Assembly: GCA_003868215.1 (NCBI GenBank)
Contig: QWDQ01000003.1
Coordinates: forward strand, 1 to 64,000
Origin: Pseudophaeomoniella oleicola
Taxonomy: Eukaryota; Ascomycota; Eurotiomycetes; Phaeomoniellales; Phaeomoniellaceae
Reading direction: 5' to 3'
Length of the DNA: 64,000 nucleotides
The position numbers and the translations under genes were made by a program. Below, piece by piece: positions 8,171-63,419 of this stretch (the first letter of the stretch is position 1; each line of letters begins with the position of its first letter). The notes beneath the pieces were generated by a model, which was not told the DNA's origin, searched no databases, and worked only from the letters and a program-made list of their open reading frames with translations.

Positions 8171-11100
8171 ATGACCAGCCACGGTCCTACATCATTGCTT
8201 CAACAGAAAGCAGTTGCGATTGCCGCACAACGGGCCAAGGAAGCATACAAGAGTCTACCAACCACCGATCCACTGTTCCAGCAATGCCTGGATCCCAATG
8301 TCTCTCTGATTGAAATGGTGAATCAGACAGTGAAACATGAAGGGCTATTCAGTAAGCGACGAAGCACTCGATTACTTCAGAGTTTCCAGAAATACACAGC
8401 CTGGATACATAATTCCGCCGCTTCAATTGATATATTGGTGGCTACTCAAGCAGGAATTGGTTGCCCTATATGGGCTCCCATCAAGTTTGTCCTCAAGGTG
8501 TGTTGCGTCGTACTACAGACCGAGGCAGGACTGAAGCTCTTGCCTAGTCTGCTAATGATGCAGTTCGAGCTGCCGATGAGGTACACATCTTCATTCGTAC
8601 CATCTCCGAGAGCCTCCCACGCTTTAACAAATACGAGAAGCTGCGGCAAGATGATGATCTCAATGCTGCTCTTTTGGACGTCTTCACGGATATCGCCGAG
8701 TCCTCTCTGATGGCCTTTCGCTTTTTCGGTCGAAACCAGTTCACCAGGTTTTACAAACAGGTCGGCCGTTCGTTCAAGGACGAATTCAACACTATACTAA
8801 ACAATGCCACTCGTCATGCGAGTATTGCTGATCAAACTACAATAGCAACTGAGTTACTAAGGAACAACACTTTTCGGTCAAAGGTGGCAAGACTTGATCA
8901 GCAAAACACAATTCTCCAGATCCAAATGTGGCTGAAGCCTGCGAATACCCGACTTTTTCAGACCCATCAATTGAAGAATCGGCACCCTGGGACGTGCGAG
9001 TGGATTTGGACTGACAGGTCATTTCAAATGTGGCTCGAGTCTAATGATAAGCCTTCTGGAGATCGTCTTCTGTACATTTACGGTTTTCATGGCTGTGGTA
9101 AGACCGTGCTTGCATCTACCATTGTTGAAAAGTTCGAGACTCAGAAATCAGAGAAAATCATGTACTTTCCATTTTCTGGGCTGGATATTTGCCGTCATGA
9201 CTTCGACGCGCTTGCTCGCAGCTTGATATGGCAAGTAGTCCGCTTTGCAGATTCCGACAACAGCCTTGAGATTGCTAAGACTCTGATGCTTCAAGGACCT
9301 CCAGTGACGTCCGATATCTGGAGGGCTTTGCAGTCCATTACTTCGAAATTTGCAGAACCTATGACGTGTGTGCTGGATGGTGTCGATGAATGCAGCGACA
9401 CTGATTCGATGTGGGCCCCTCTGTCAGACCTTCTCGACTCGAAAAGTGATTTCAAAGTCATCGTTCTCGGGCGCACCTACATTAACAGAGGTGCGATTCC
9501 GTCAAGCTTATCCATCGAAATTACCCCAGACGTCACAAAGCGAGACCTCCAGGATTTTATAAGTCGAGGGTTGGACAATCATGCTGTTCTAGAACTCCCA
9601 GACATCAGAGGCCTTGTACACGGCGCGCTTTAGTCCAGGTCCCAAGGCATGTTCTTGTTCGCTAAATTGATGATAGAGCATCTTCGTAATTCCGACTCTC
9701 GAAATCAAGCTCTGGAGCGGGTTAATGACCTCCCAAACGGCTTAGAAGAAGCATACAGTTTGATGCTCTTGGATTGCGTTCGCAAGCTGGACAAGTATCA
9801 GTTGAGACTGGTCAGGAATGTGTTGTTGTTCTTGGTAATGGGCTTTCGCCCTCTGACATCAGCCGAACTTCAACACCTCCTCGCTGTTGAAAGGACGCAG
9901 TTTACACCGGGATCTTCCAAGTCTTACCAAGGTCATCTCATCACTGATGCAGAGACGAAAATTGAAAGGTTGTGTCATGGACTTGTCAGAGTCCACAATG
10001 GAACATTTCATCTCTCACACTTCTCTCTCAAAGAGTTCCTTTCACGTCCTGAAGCTAACTGGGAAGCTTGCTGTGACAACGAAGTTGCCTTCTTCCGAGT
10101 CGATATCGAAGGAGCCCATGAGGTTTTAGGTGTGATCTGTTATGACTATTTGTCTGCCACCGATCTCGACTCGCCTTTGTCAGATGCGTCCACTGTAGCT
10201 GACCTGGACCTCAAACACCCCCTGTTGAGTTACGCGTCGCAATATGGGATGTCTCACTGTTACCATTCGAAAGGGTCACAGTATCTTCTGGACAGACTAC
10301 TGGAATTTGTGGAGTGTCGTCAATTCACTGTGTGGCTAGAATATATGAGTGTTACTGCCTTATCGGACGAATCCGGTGTCACTGTTGAGCGTATCGAAAA
10401 TGACGTCCGTGCCTTGCTGACCTGGTTGAAAGTCAAAGATTCTGTTCTTGTAACTTTGTTCCAGTCAAAGATCGAGGCTGCAATTAATTCAGAGACTTCA
10501 AGGAGAACAGAGAAATATGGCCTAATGGACGAAAGATCACATGCGCTTACTGGTCTTCTCGTCATGTTCCAGGTGCTGATGGGTCAATCAGGGATAACGA
10601 AGGACACTGCCACACCGACGGTGACGTATCAAGGATCCAGTGAGATGAAAGGAAAGTCAAAAGACATTGAACTTGTTCAGCCACACCAAAGGCGGTTGAC
10701 ATTGCAGACAGAGGCAATCTTCAACGAAACGCGAGGTTTATTGAAGCCAGATATTACACCCCTTCATTCGGCGCAGGTCAAGACCATTGTGGCTCTAGGT
10801 TCGATGCTCGGAAAAGTGCAGAAACTGGCGGACCCGTTGCAGATGTTCTCCCAGATGGTCCTAAAACAAGCAAGCAAATTACCGGTCTATGTGCTTATTG
10901 TGCTAGGACATTATTATGAAAGGCTCAACAAACACGACGAGGCGCTGGAGCTCTTGCGGATTGCCCTAAAGAAGCTCGAAAGCCAGGAGAGTCCGGCCAA
11001 ATGGCTGATTCAGCACAACATTGGAGTGATCTTCATGCACAAAGATCGAATGAGCGAGGCGGAGACGTTCTTGTATGCTTCTCTCAGTGGACAGGACAAT

Positions 11101-12279
11101 GGAGGGAGAAAAGAAGATTGGCGGACGTACGTGACATGTAGTTGCTTGGCTGATGTATACCGATCTCAGGGAAAGAACAAAGAGGCAGAAGGCCTGTTGA
11201 GGCGCTGTTCAGAGGGCCGTATGAGAGGATACGGCGCGGATGAGACGACTCTTGGTTATTATTGGGATCTTGCGTCTGCTTGCCAGCCATTAGATAAAAA
11301 TAATGAGGCCAAGCAGCACGCTCTGCGAGTCTACCGTGGACTGGAAAAGATTCTGGGATGTCATCACCCCGATGTGCAAGAAGCCTTTGAGCTCGTATCC
11401 AGCTTGGCTTTCGAACTTCGGAATTACGATGAGGACGAACATTTACTCCGTGAGCGGCTTGATCGCATCCAAGAAGGCGGAAAGGGAGATCCCAACATGG
11501 TTGCTCGCAACATGCAATGGCTGGTAATCACTCTCTGGAATAAGTCGAAGCCTAACACTCTCGGCGAGCGTCGGGACCTCAATACTGCCATGGATTTCAT
11601 GCTCCAGACCATAACCTATCACAAGGAAAAGTTCGTACCGAAGTCCGAAGATTTAGGCTATACTATCTTATGTTGGTCCGAAGAATTGCACGAAGAGGAA
11701 AAATATGAGGAACTTGGGCAACTTGTCCAGGCAGCTCTGCCACTATTCCGGAGGTCATTTGGCGAAACCGCTGGGACACTGTTGGCATATGCTTGGAAGT
11801 CTATGGCTCATTTCGAACTCGGCGAGTATATCGAGGCCGAAAAGTTCTGCCGGTCGAGTAACGGCTTACCTCTATCTGAAAGGCCCCAAACTAGAAATTA
11901 CGGTACCTGGCCTATCTATGTTATGCGTCTTGGTCGAACCCTTCAAAAAATGGGAAATGACTCTGCCGCATTTTTGCTCTTCCGACAGGCGCTCATGGCT
12001 TGGCGTGCAGCGTATCCGGACGATGAAGCACAGCTGGATTGGTTGATGAGGCATATCATCAGGTACCTAGCCTCAGCCGAAGCACAGAAACCCCTCCAAC
12101 GCCGTAGATCGGACGAAGTTCTGATGCCGGACAGTTTCTTTGAACTCGTGATGACTTGCAGTGGAGTGTCCAGAGAAATCAAGCAGCAGCAGCAGCAGTT
12201 GATATCAGAAGGGGAAGATGGCAGCTGTGACGACGGCGACCTGAACGACCCCCTGCGAAGGAGAGCTAATTCGATATGA
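8171..12279 (+). pseudogene. NLR-like DUF7708-NACHT-TPR protein interrupted by one stop
   Basis: Fungal STAND/NLR-type protein. Exon 1 is 8171-8497. A 50-bp intron (8498-8547, ending CCTAG) leads into exon 2, 8548-12279, for 1,353 codons in all. The first ~200 residues resemble the fungal DUF7708 N-terminal module (PIWAPIKFVLK, then LPRFNKYEKL). A NACHT NTPase follows: Walker A GFHGCGKT near residue 287 and Walker B CVLDGVDEC near 383. After about residue 880 come TPR-like repeats (for example YERLNKHDEALELLRIALKK), and the protein ends in a polyQ-containing tail. A single in-frame TAG at 9631-9633 interrupts the reading frame just before GMFLFAKLMIEHL, in the NACHT C-terminal part. The frame is otherwise open for more than 870 codons on the other side. 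The only local GT-AG pairs that would remove the stop are 18-23 bp apart, too short for an intron. So this is a recent nonsense allele, a sequencing error, or a two-ORF gene with restart at 9649. By family, such proteins act in allorecognition or immunity-like cell death. Confidence 0.85.
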
Positions 12280-58904: not shown

Positions 58905-60340
58905 GGTCGCCCGTCCCAAGCCGTGGTGGAGATTGAAATGGTGGGGGGCTGGTATAGCTGTCACGTTGATCGATAGTTTCGTGGCGCTCCTGAAATCATA
59001 GCGATGAGAGCAACGTCGTCTGAGACACAAGCAGCGCGTAGACTGGATGTAGATTTTCAGACGGTCAGCAGAGAGGTCACCCGCTATGGAGTTGCCCGAA
59101 GGTGTTGGTTCCTCAGGATCGCAACAGAAGCAACAAAGCACAAGCAATCCAATTGGAGCGACTACTCAAGCGAGATCCTGAACACCAAACATTTGAGATA
59201 CGAAACCAGAAAAAAGTATAAGAGGTTGGGCCGCAGGACGAAGGAGGGAGAGAGAGCTTTTAGCAATATCAATGTGATTTGTTCGTTAGCTATGAAGACG
59301 GGCTGCATTGACATGAAGTGGTGATAGGCAATGTGAACAGACGGGGTAACCGTGCGGTCTGGACAGATGGACATAGGGAACGCTGAGTGGCTGCCGTTAC
59401 TACTATGTAGTACATAGTACAGGACACTGCAAGGGTCAGTTGGCGCGATCCTCCATATTTTGAGAGTTGGTGAGCCAATGGAAGAGATGGCGGGCAGAGC
59501 ATCAGGGAGCATCAAGACTACAGATCCTTGTCAAGAGGTTTGACGGATGCATAGTGGCTTCTCTCTAATCACATCCATCGACTGTGCTTGTTATGCGGGA
59601 AGACCATCCTCGGCGGCTACACGTCTTGGCACTGCACTACTCGATCAACCTTACTCATCCAACCCCCAAGCCACCTCGGGACTGTACATAATCAAGAGAC
59701 AAGACGAGGAAGAGGCTCAGCTCAGAGATAAATCATATATATCTATGGACATAGGGATGCACTCAGGAAGCTTGCCCTGAGTTTGATTCTCCATGTATAT
59801 ATATCGTATCTGTTGATATTGCCAACCTGATCAACAACTGCAATGCTGTGATAGATCTACTTCAATACGGTCTAGGCTTGACCCAAGCTTTGGACCAACA
59901 ACTAAGAATAGATCTTGACCTAGCGAATCCCAGAAATTGCCAATTAACATCTTTTTTTCGGCAAGCTCCATCCCCCAGATAAGTTACGTGGTGCAAATTT
60001 TGACCATCCACTGACAGAAAATTTGCTCAATAGCCGAGAGCTTTCTGTTCGATCAGAGTACCATGATGCTTACCAGAGATAAGATGAGGCTTGCGGTGGC
60101 GGCACGTGTGACCCACAGGAGGGTGATGATTGCCTAAGTTAGGTGGACGACACTGGTTCATCCAACATTTGGGGTCCGCAGGAGTCGCATTGACAACCCT
60201 TACGATAACGCGGCACAGTTCATATCACGGTCGGAAAATTGCTATGCAGTCATTGGATCACTTTGACCTACCTCGAACTATTGGGAAGCAGAGCTGTGAC
60301 TGCTTGATTACCTGGAACGACAATCAGCATCTCGACTCAG
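58905..60340. other. Intergenic region
   Basis: Promoter side of the large gene and the presumed 3' part of the snoRNA host transcript. A donor-like minus-strand GGTAAGC occurs near 60073. No snR72-like guide and no protein gene was found. Confidence 0.45.
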
Positions 60341-60373
60341 CAATTTAACAGAGGCAGTAAGAGTGCAGAATTG

Positions 60374-60462
60374 CTATCAGATCAAAGCCCTGTCACAGGC
60401 TGTGGTCATCAACGCTTGAAGCTATGTTGACCGTCGTGATAAATAGAGTAAATCATCATAAA
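60374..60462 (-). ncRNA. Box C/D snoRNA, snR73-like
   Basis: Box C is at 60453-60459 and box D CTGA at 60377-60380, with an internal TTGATGA C'-like box. The guide TCACGACGGTC (60429-60439) pairs 11 nt with LSU GACCGUCGUGA near the peptidyl-transferase centre. With D' taken as CATA, the rule selects the C equivalent to yeast 25S C2959, the snR73 site. Confidence 0.8.
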
Positions 60463-60617
60463 GATAGGTGCCGGTGAAGATGAGATGCCTTGAAGACTTA
60501 CATTGGAGTAGTGGTTGACCTTTCAGATTCGTTCTGTGTTGCCTCCATGACCTGGAACAATGCGTGATCAGCAGCTGCAGGTAGAGCGGTGTGTGATGGC
60601 CATTGCAAGGGGTGCTC

Positions 60618-60702
60618 GAGTCAGCTGGGACAGTCTCGTCTTTGCCGACGGAATGTCGACTTGGACATATGCTTGTCTTTTGAAATGTCGATTCATCATA
60701 TA
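60618..60702 (-). ncRNA. Box C/D snoRNA, snR74/U27-like
   Basis: Box C is at 60693-60699 and box D CTGA at 60621-60624. The guide AGACAAGCATATG (60666-60678) pairs 13 nt with the SSU 5' region CAUAUGCUUGUCU. This places the modification at the equivalent of yeast 18S A28 (snR74; human U27), with a degenerate CCAA D' box. Its donor (60733) implies a very small upstream exon. Confidence 0.83.
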
Positions 60703-60797
60703 AGAGAACAGTGGGATGGTTCGTAGAACATACAAATCCTGCCCTCGTCGTCAGCGTGTGCAATCAACGTCAACATGCGGCAATGGTATATCGATCT

Positions 60798-60887
60798 TGA
60801 TCAGGAAATGCATGAATGGTATATAAAAGGATGTTGTCTGCATTGGAAACCCAAATAAGACTCGTCATCTAAGGAGATCATCATAAA
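60798..60887 (-). ncRNA. Box C/D snoRNA, snR75-like
   Basis: Box C is at 60878-60884 and box D CTGA at 60801-60804. The guide TTAGATGACGAG (60861-60872) pairs 12 nt with LSU CUCGUCAUCUAA next to a CTTA D' box. The rule selects the G equivalent to yeast 25S G2288, the snR75 site. Upstream of D, CCATTCATGC also complements LSU GCAUGAAUGG, but it is offset by five bases and does not obey the rule. Confidence 0.85.
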
Positions 60888-61028
60888 GAGGAGGGTTGTG
60901 CGTCATGACGGAGGTCTGCTTACCTAAATGAGAATCCCCAAGGCTATTGAGACAAGGTATGTGGTCGCCTGCGAGACTATCAGTCACTTCCATTAACAAT
61001 GTAGTGGATGGAAATATGATTCAAGACA

Positions 61029-61128
61029 AGATCAGTGGGCAAGGTTTTCTAGGCCTGCCACAATGGGGCATATCGATCAAGATTCGGAACTCTTGAGTCC
61101 GTCAGAGCCCAGTGCCATTCATCACAAG
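61029..61128 (-). ncRNA. Box C/D snoRNA, snR76-like
   Basis: Box C GTGATGA is at 61119-61125, box D CTGA at 61032-61035, and a perfect CTGA D' box lies within GGCTCTGACGG. The D' guide GCACTGGGC pairs 9 nt with LSU GCCCAGUGC. The fifth-nucleotide rule gives the C equivalent to yeast 25S C2197, the snR76 site. The D guide target was not recognised. Confidence 0.78.
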
Positions 61129-61289
61129 ATGTGAAGCGCTGTACGAAAAGTTGAATAGACTTACCATTGCCTAGGGTCCACGTATAGGAACAGAGTAAGA
61201 CCTATCGGGATGTGTGTCCTGCTTGGTTGTGACTGTCAGTTTTGTAGACCATCATAGATTGCATGAAATTGGAAATGTATCCACGACAA

Positions 61290-61398
61290 AAATCAGTTAA
61301 AGCCATTTGTTATCGCCAGCGATCGCTCCCCTCGAGAGGAGAGACAAATCTCGGCCGGTAATTTCCAGCGTATATTGTTACGAAATGATCATCATAGA
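61290..61398 (-). ncRNA. Box C/D snoRNA, snR77-like
   Basis: Box C is at 61389-61395 and box D (CTGA) at 61293-61296. The guide AATATACG next to a CTGG D' box (61367-61376) pairs with SSU rRNA AGCGUAUAUU. The fifth-nucleotide rule selects the U equivalent to yeast 18S U578, the snR77 site. The following CTGGAAATTACCG resembles the antisense of the nearby SSU sequence with one extra A. No target was recognised for the D guide. Confidence 0.75.
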
Positions 61399-61637
61399 AG
61401 TCGTTGGTGACATGAAAAGGAATTGGAACTGCAAGACGGGAGTCCGCGCAGATAGGATGAAATCGTACCTTGGTATGACAAGTCCAAGTCGTTCCGCATG
61501 GGTGTAGGTCGGTTTTCAAGACATTAAGTCGCAGAGGCTCTCCTCGGTGGCGGTCAGCTCGAAGACATCGACTGCAGGCCTGCCAACATTAGATCATGAC
61601 GACAAAGAAGAGACGCTTCATCGAGGGGAAGAGCTGG

Positions 61638-61722
61638 AATCAGCCTGACGTGCAAAAGGGTTTCATTCCTCCTAGGAGGTCAAAGACTCTAGTTTGTTGC
61701 GGTTTGTGCATATCATCATAAA
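61638..61722 (-). ncRNA. Box C/D snoRNA, snR78-like, with a second guide
   Basis: Box C is at 61713-61719 and box D (CTGA) at 61640-61643. The D' guide AAACTAGAGTC (61685-61695) pairs with the LSU sequence GACUCUAGUUU next to a TTGA D' box. The fifth-nucleotide rule points to the yeast 25S U2421 position, the snR78 site. The D guide TTTGCACGTCAG (61645-61656) pairs 12 nt with LSU CUGACGUGCAAA. The rule there points to the A of CUGAC, equivalent to A817, the snR60 site in yeast. A CCTCCTAGGAGG palindrome lies between the guides. rRNA positions are from memory. Confidence 0.85.
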
Positions 61723-61800
61723 AGTGCTAGGAAGGAAGGTGGTGCAGAGTAATCAAGCTAGAATCACGTACCTTGCTCACTGGAGGATGCCCTCACATTG

Positions 61801-62195: not shown

Positions 62196-63419
62196 TCACT
62201 TGTGGTAATCAATTACCTTCTGGACCTCATCATAACTTCCCATATATATGCCACTTCTGTCGTGGATGTGCTCAGGAACAACCTCCAGCATCCTCTGCAT
62301 CTTACTGTTGACCGCAAGGCCACCAGCGTTCTCCATGACCATGGCCATTGGCTATTGAAGTCGTCAGCGGAAAGCCCTATAATTAACGTACAGCATGATT
62401 CCTGAGACTTACCGCACATTCATACAAAATCCTCAGCTTCCCCTTGGGGCTCTTCTTGTCCGCAGGATATGCAAAAATTCCACCGTATAGCAGGGTTCGG
62501 TAGGCATCCGCTACCATGGAACCAATGTATCGAGCGCTGTATGGCTTTTCCTTTTCGTCAGGCGGGAACTTCAGGCTCTCAAAGTATTTCTTTGTGTTAT
62601 CCTCCCAATATAGGCTGTTGCCTTCGTTGACGCTATAAATAGACCTTTTCTTTGGTAACTGCATGTCGGGGTGAGTCAAGATGAACTCCCCCAGCGCATT
62701 GTCCAGAGTGAACCCATTCACAGTACCTCCTTTCAGGGTGATCGCCAATTGTGCCGACGCACCATACATAGTGAAACCAGCAGCCAGGAGCTCGGTTCCA
62801 GGCAGGAGAACGTCTTCAGGCGAAGGCTTTTTGCCAACGACTGCTTCGGGGAGCTTGTAGACACCAAAGATTGTGCCTACACTCACACCGGCATCAAGAT
62901 TACTTGATCCATCGATAGGGTCGCACACCACGGCGTATCTTGCGTCTGGAGAATCTTCGAATATGATGGCTTCTTCCTCCTCTTCTGACACGAGCAGCCT
63001 GCATTTTCCAGAACCCCGCATCGCTGCAACAAAGACATCGTTGCCGATGACATCAAGTTTCTTCTGGTCATCGCCAGTGATGTTTGAGGAACCAGCCAAA
63101 CCGGTGAGATTGATCAGCGTTGCACGTCGGATGAAATAGGCGATTGACTTGAAAGAGAACTGCAGAGCATGACAAAGAAGCCTGGAGGATTGGGTTCGGT
63201 TAGTACTGACGCGCCCTAATGCTCGCAGAGTCTCCCACTTCCGAGGGCCATTGCCAGGAAAGGGGAACAGGTACTGCAGGGGGCTCACGTGAAATCACCG
63301 GTCGCCTCCTTGTGCTTTGCTTGTTCCTCAGTAAAGAAGCGCGTTAGGGTAATGATATCGGTCTTGATGGATTCTGTGCCCACGCCTGCACCATTATCTG
63401 CAGCGCCGTTCGTAGCCAT
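62196..63419 (-). CDS. FBP1: Fructose-1,6-bisphosphatase
   Basis: Gluconeogenic enzyme hydrolysing fructose-1,6-bisphosphate. Exons 63289-63419, 62413-63181 and 62196-62351 give 351 aa, normal for the family (yeast about 348). Motifs: ITLTRFF near the N terminus, AGSSNITGDDQKKLDVIGN, VSEEEEE, the metal-binding VCDPIDGSSNLD, ARYIGSMVADAYRTLLYGGI with the sugar-phosphate site, and LYECAPMAMVMENAGG spanning the last junction. Introns are 107 and 61 bp. It is usually glucose-repressed and cytosolic; no repressor site was assigned with confidence. Confidence 0.97.

Follow-up and report, generated by a model that had tools for sequence, protein, structure and literature searches.

The snoRNA genes of the locus

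The minus strand of the window (the whole stretch of DNA that was analysed, 64,000 nucleotides) carries six box C/D snoRNAs. In transcription order they are candidate homologues of snR78/72, snR77, snR76, snR75, snR74 and snR73, which is the order of snoRNA cluster I. Lengths and coordinates run from box C to box D, outer edges included.

61640..61719, minus strand, snR78/72 double-guide box C/D snoRNA, 80 nt (boxes ATGATGA, TTGA and CTGA)
61293..61395, minus strand, snR77 homologue, 103 nt (Rfam Afu_300, 69.3 bits, gathering score 40)
61032..61125, minus strand, snR76 homologue, 94 nt (Rfam Afu_513, 87.2 bits, gathering score 48)
60801..60884, minus strand, snR75 homologue, 84 nt (Rfam snR75, 82.5 bits, gathering score 40)
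60621..60699, minus strand, snR74 homologue, 79 nt (assigned by boxes, guide and position)
60377..60459, minus strand, snR73 homologue, 83 nt (Rfam snR73, 54.4 bits, gathering score 37)

All six have a box C (RTGATGA) and a box D (CTGA) at snoRNA spacing, 79–103 nt apart. Across the whole window, under criteria fixed after the features had been seen, RTGATGA was followed by a CTGA starting 55–104 nt later at 3 of 12 C-like motifs on the plus strand and 7 of 20 on the minus strand; six of these 10 sites are the cluster snoRNAs. The D′ boxes are less regular. Five of the six differ from CTGA (TTGA, CCGA, CTTA, CCAA and CATA), which counts against the assignment to cluster I.

Four of the six snoRNAs passed an Rfam gathering score (Afu_300, Afu_513, snR75 and snR73), and these were the sole such matches in the whole window. 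When matches with E up to 10 were admitted between 58501 and 63000, 10 were retrieved: these four, five weak ones overlapping the same snoRNAs (snR76, DdR6, SNORD27, SNOR75 and sR19) and RMST_8. The last, at 59483-59623 on the plus strand, lies far under its gathering score and was taken as a chance match. The snR76 family (RF01209) gave 32 bits on the snR76 homologue, under its gathering score of 55, and the snR74 homologue drew a weak, sub-gathering SNORD27 match (E 4.3). None of the families retrieved in that interval at E up to 10 matched the first snoRNA. The snR78/72 and snR74 identities were therefore assigned from boxes, guides and position, and the absence of an above-gathering match for these two is a further point against cluster I. 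A search of the organism's own assembly for snR75 gave one match among the 56 of 3086 candidates that were scored.

Guides and their predicted rRNA targets

Targets were assigned with the box+5 rule, in which the target is the rRNA nucleotide that pairs with the guide position five nucleotides upstream of box D or D′. The reference consisted of provisional versions of five stretches of yeast rRNA around the expected sites, which cover part of the rRNA and from which the host's own rRNA may differ. These stretches carry the right base at all 33 modified positions drawn from PMC8307265; four of the 33 are anchors set by the analyst, leaving 29 of 29 at non-anchor positions. Because the choice of stretches followed the expected sites, the comparison shows that those sites fit, not that other rRNA sites would fail to.

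On these yeast stretches, seven guides fall on seven known yeast sites. The D′ guide of the first snoRNA pairs with 25S U2421 over 12 bp, and its D guide pairs, also over 12 bp, with 25S A876, the yeast snR72 site. The D′ guides of the remaining RNAs address 18S U578 (snR77, 8 contiguous bp adjoining the box), 25S C2197 (snR76, 9 bp), 25S G2288 (snR75, 12 bp), 18S A28 (snR74, 13 bp) and 25S C2959 (snR73, 11 bp). In six RNAs the locus holds all seven guide functions of the yeast snR78–snR72 cluster, since the guides of snR78 and snR72 are united in the first RNA. Against these seven sites, 200 shuffles, run under criteria likewise fixed after the features had been seen, addressed 0, 1 and 2 known methylation sites in 177, 20 and 3 cases.

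The A876 guide, searched as an exact pattern in a C/D frame, has one match in the assembly (26.1 Mb, 112 contigs), at the first snoRNA. No C/D pair was found downstream of snR73, where yeast has snR72; the snR72 guide is in the first snoRNA instead. The preliminary description had named six sites, U2421, U578, C2197, G2288, A28 and C2959, and the box+5 rule returned every one of them on the yeast stretches. Its account of the guide content was incomplete in one respect: it had missed the seventh guide, the D guide of the first RNA. The order that it had given, snR78-77-76-75-74-73, held for six box C/D snoRNAs, with boxes in all six, Rfam matches in four and the order described in PMC3596301.

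The shortest pairing is that of snR77. It has just 8 contiguous bp next to the D′ box because the guide contains a single A without a counterpart in the yeast 18S stretch, and this short pairing was counted against cluster I; by eye, pairing resumes after the one bulged A. The guide lies at 61356-61369, and the same AAA occurs in the Rfam Afu_300 consensus.

Complementarity also extends beyond the guides in two RNAs. In the snR75 homologue, 10 nt are complementary to 25S 2307-2316, and in the snR77 homologue 10 nt are complementary to 18S 594-603, in each case a short way 3′ of the rRNA target site. This resembles the 'extra base-pairing' described in PMC5389607 for yeast snoRNAs such as snR13, although the account there does not name snR75 or snR77, and the two elements may act in a similar manner. 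On the D side, the snR76 homologue has the element GGCCTAGAAAACC (61043-61055), which fits both the Rfam snR76 and the Afu_513 consensus. No complementary 8-mer occurs in the five yeast stretches, a small part of the rRNA, and the element is possibly a guide. The D-side element of the snR73 homologue, GCCTGTGACAGGGC (60387-60400), is identical to the Rfam snR73 consensus, and for it, too, the five yeast stretches contain no complementary 8-mer.

Predicted introns and host transcript

Each snoRNA lies in its own predicted intron.

61580..61771, minus strand, intron 1 with snR78/72, 192 nt; donor (GTACGT) 52 nt upstream of box C; branch-like CTAAT and a CAG that ends 60 nt past box D
61219..61468, minus strand, intron 2 with snR77, 250 nt; donor (GTACGA) 73 nt upstream of box C; CTGAC and a CAG that ends 74 nt past box D
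60969..61164, minus strand, intron 3 with snR76, 196 nt; donor (GTAAGT) 39 nt upstream of box C; CTGAT and a CAG that ends 63 nt past box D
60739..60923, minus strand, intron 4 with snR75, 185 nt; donor (GTAAGC) 39 nt upstream of box C; CTGAC and a CAG that ends 62 nt past box D
60552..60733, minus strand, intron 5 with snR74, 182 nt; donor (GTATGT) 34 nt upstream of box C; CTGAT and a CAG that ends 69 nt past box D
60312..60501, minus strand, intron 6 with snR73, 190 nt; donor (GTAAGT) 42 nt upstream of box C; CTGAT and a CAG that ends 65 nt past box D

A GTANG donor stands 34–73 nt before box C in 6/6 introns, and a branch-like CT[AG]A followed by YAG, ending 60–74 nt after box D, is likewise present in 6/6. 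When the flanks were shuffled 5000 times with dinucleotide counts preserved, donors were recovered for at most three of the six introns and branch-plus-acceptor signals for at most three, against six and six observed, with motif and distance limits that had been set after the introns were inspected. Narrower limits left 5/6 donors, with shuffles reaching up to three.

These introns would leave the following internal exons in the host transcript.

61469-61579, minus strand, predicted exon, 111 nt
61165-61218, minus strand, predicted exon, 54 nt
60924-60968, minus strand, predicted exon, 45 nt
60734-60738, minus strand, predicted exon (GATTT), 5 nt, flanked by the snR75 intron, whose CAG ends at 60739, and by the snR74 intron with its GTATGT donor at 60733
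60502-60551, minus strand, predicted exon, 50 nt

The stretch that holds them (60502..61579, minus strand) contains no long open frame. With outer ends assumed, stops interrupt every one of the three frames of the predicted spliced RNA, and the longest run of codons free of them is 59. The proposed product is one spliced non-coding host transcript with six introns, akin to the animal UHG genes. Each intron would release one box C/D snoRNA through splicing, debranching and exonuclease trimming; splicing, release and 2′-O-methylation at this locus are expected from the known biology of such clusters.

The earlier observation of six box C/D snoRNAs in introns is confirmed at the level of predicted splice sites. 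The distances from donor to box C, described before as 34–73 nt, are 52, 73, 39, 39, 34 and 42 nt. The statement that order and guides are kept while an intronic layout replaces the yeast polycistron also agrees with the predicted splice signals, present in all six introns and well above the shuffles.

Upstream of the cluster, on the same strand, an open frame at 62383-63288 contains both fructose-1,6-bisphosphatase domains. Elsewhere in the window, two adjacent open frames at 8674-12279 encode an NPHP3_N domain and TPR repeats, with NACHT just under the cut-off, and resemble an NLR-like fungal gene. The stretch 39231-40400 encodes an AAA ATPase that includes the AAA_lid_13 domain of fungi. 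The window also encodes an Ndc80-like protein. Among the best 120 of its 1487 matches, the closest relatives are 79-84% identical, and named ones include Pyrenula (63-64%), Capronia (62%) and Aspergillus (60-64%). These matches point to a filamentous ascomycete, probably one of the eurotiomycetes.

Comparison with known clusters

Cluster I is given by Luo 2013 (PMC3596301) as snR78-77-76-75-74-73-72. In that account, whose species include Coccidioides immitis and members of Aspergillus, every cluster I snoRNA of the Euascomycetes examined is intronic, and the intron-less yeast form is attributed to intron loss. Over the three clusters treated there, 323 of 460 snoRNAs were predicted to be intronic, and 83 of these introns were verified. 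The spliced host RNAs are described as having little coding potential, the internal exons as small or absent in some cases, and snR78/72 as having arisen by recombination in all Euascomycetes studied. Our locus has in common with this form the order, the intronic layout, the joining of snR72 to snR78, the non-coding host and the possibility of small internal exons. No difference in order, layout, snR78/72 fusion or host type was established relative to what PMC3596301 reports.

In Neurospora crassa, PMC2780460 describes intronic snoRNA clusters, RT-PCR of the cluster hosts and alternative splicing of cluster I. CD5, CD24, CD12, CD7, CD21 and CD31 have the corresponding sites, and all are placed on chromosome VI, in introns; together they presumably make up cluster I of that species. 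CD5 is a double guide (Am856 and Um2383) and corresponds to snR78/72. The likeness extends to the guides, the double guide, the intronic position (by RT-PCR in N. crassa) and a host with short open frames only.

The snR78–snR72 polycistron of Saccharomyces cerevisiae shares the order and target sites. However, it yields seven RNAs from an unspliced precursor, whereas the locus here has six RNAs in predicted introns, with snR72 joined to snR78. Conservation of the same cluster is reviewed in PMC5033589, which describes Candida. The animal UHG and GAS5 host genes, a comparison drawn in PMC2780460, are likewise spliced, non-coding and provided with one C/D snoRNA per intron, but their snoRNA set is different; the likeness is one of kind, and homology is not claimed.

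We therefore regard the locus as a new instance of a known arrangement, since PMC3596301 and PMC2780460 already contain it. Order, individual predicted introns in a host that lacks a long open frame and the merged snR72/snR78 double guide all correspond to the Euascomycete form, and the locus of this filamentous ascomycete is most probably (about 0.96) an orthologue of fungal snoRNA cluster I.

Alternative explanations and the 5-nt exon

The same snoRNAs are processed in budding yeast from an unspliced precursor cut by an RNase III enzyme (PMC5033589, citing Qu 1999), and the GT/AG signals seen here could in principle be relics of introns in a locus now expressed in that manner. Relics should decay, yet donor, branch-like and acceptor signals stand at similar distances in 6/6 introns, and cluster I is intronic in the Euascomycetes examined in PMC3596301, so that yeast-style processing is very unlikely. 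Still less credible is an origin by chance or as remnants of snoRNA pseudogenes. Degenerate D′ boxes and the two snoRNAs without an above-gathering Rfam match would suit such an origin, but the guides fit seven known sites, a level that the shuffles did not reach.

The 5-nt exon is unusual and counts against cluster I as well; it is the single unusual local detail of this predicted gene. A different reading of it is that some introns, above all those of snR75 and snR74, are removed together or recursively, which would give a lariat with two snoRNAs. So short an exon favours this, as do the complex introns without intervening exons reported in Euascomycetes (PMC3596301) and the N. crassa cluster I transcripts from which, according to PMC2780460, exon 2 may be missing, either alone or together with exon 3. 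Nevertheless, the GTATGT donor looks intact, as does the inner acceptor, and we consider joint removal possible, with the odds somewhat against it. It is compatible with cluster I as the best explanation of the locus. More tentatively still, the snR75 and snR74 introns may leave as one unit or recursively in a two-snoRNA lariat that would couple the output of the 25S G2288 and 18S A28 guides.

Assignment to cluster I makes the locus an ordinary example of a known intronic cluster, and its contrast with yeast is already known. The only new question that it raises is how the 5-nt exon is handled. Pseudophaeomoniella oleicola would add one further fungus to a known example of a changed mode of expression with snoRNA order and targets kept. 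This agrees with published work that regards the intronic form as the older one and the introns as lost in budding yeast.
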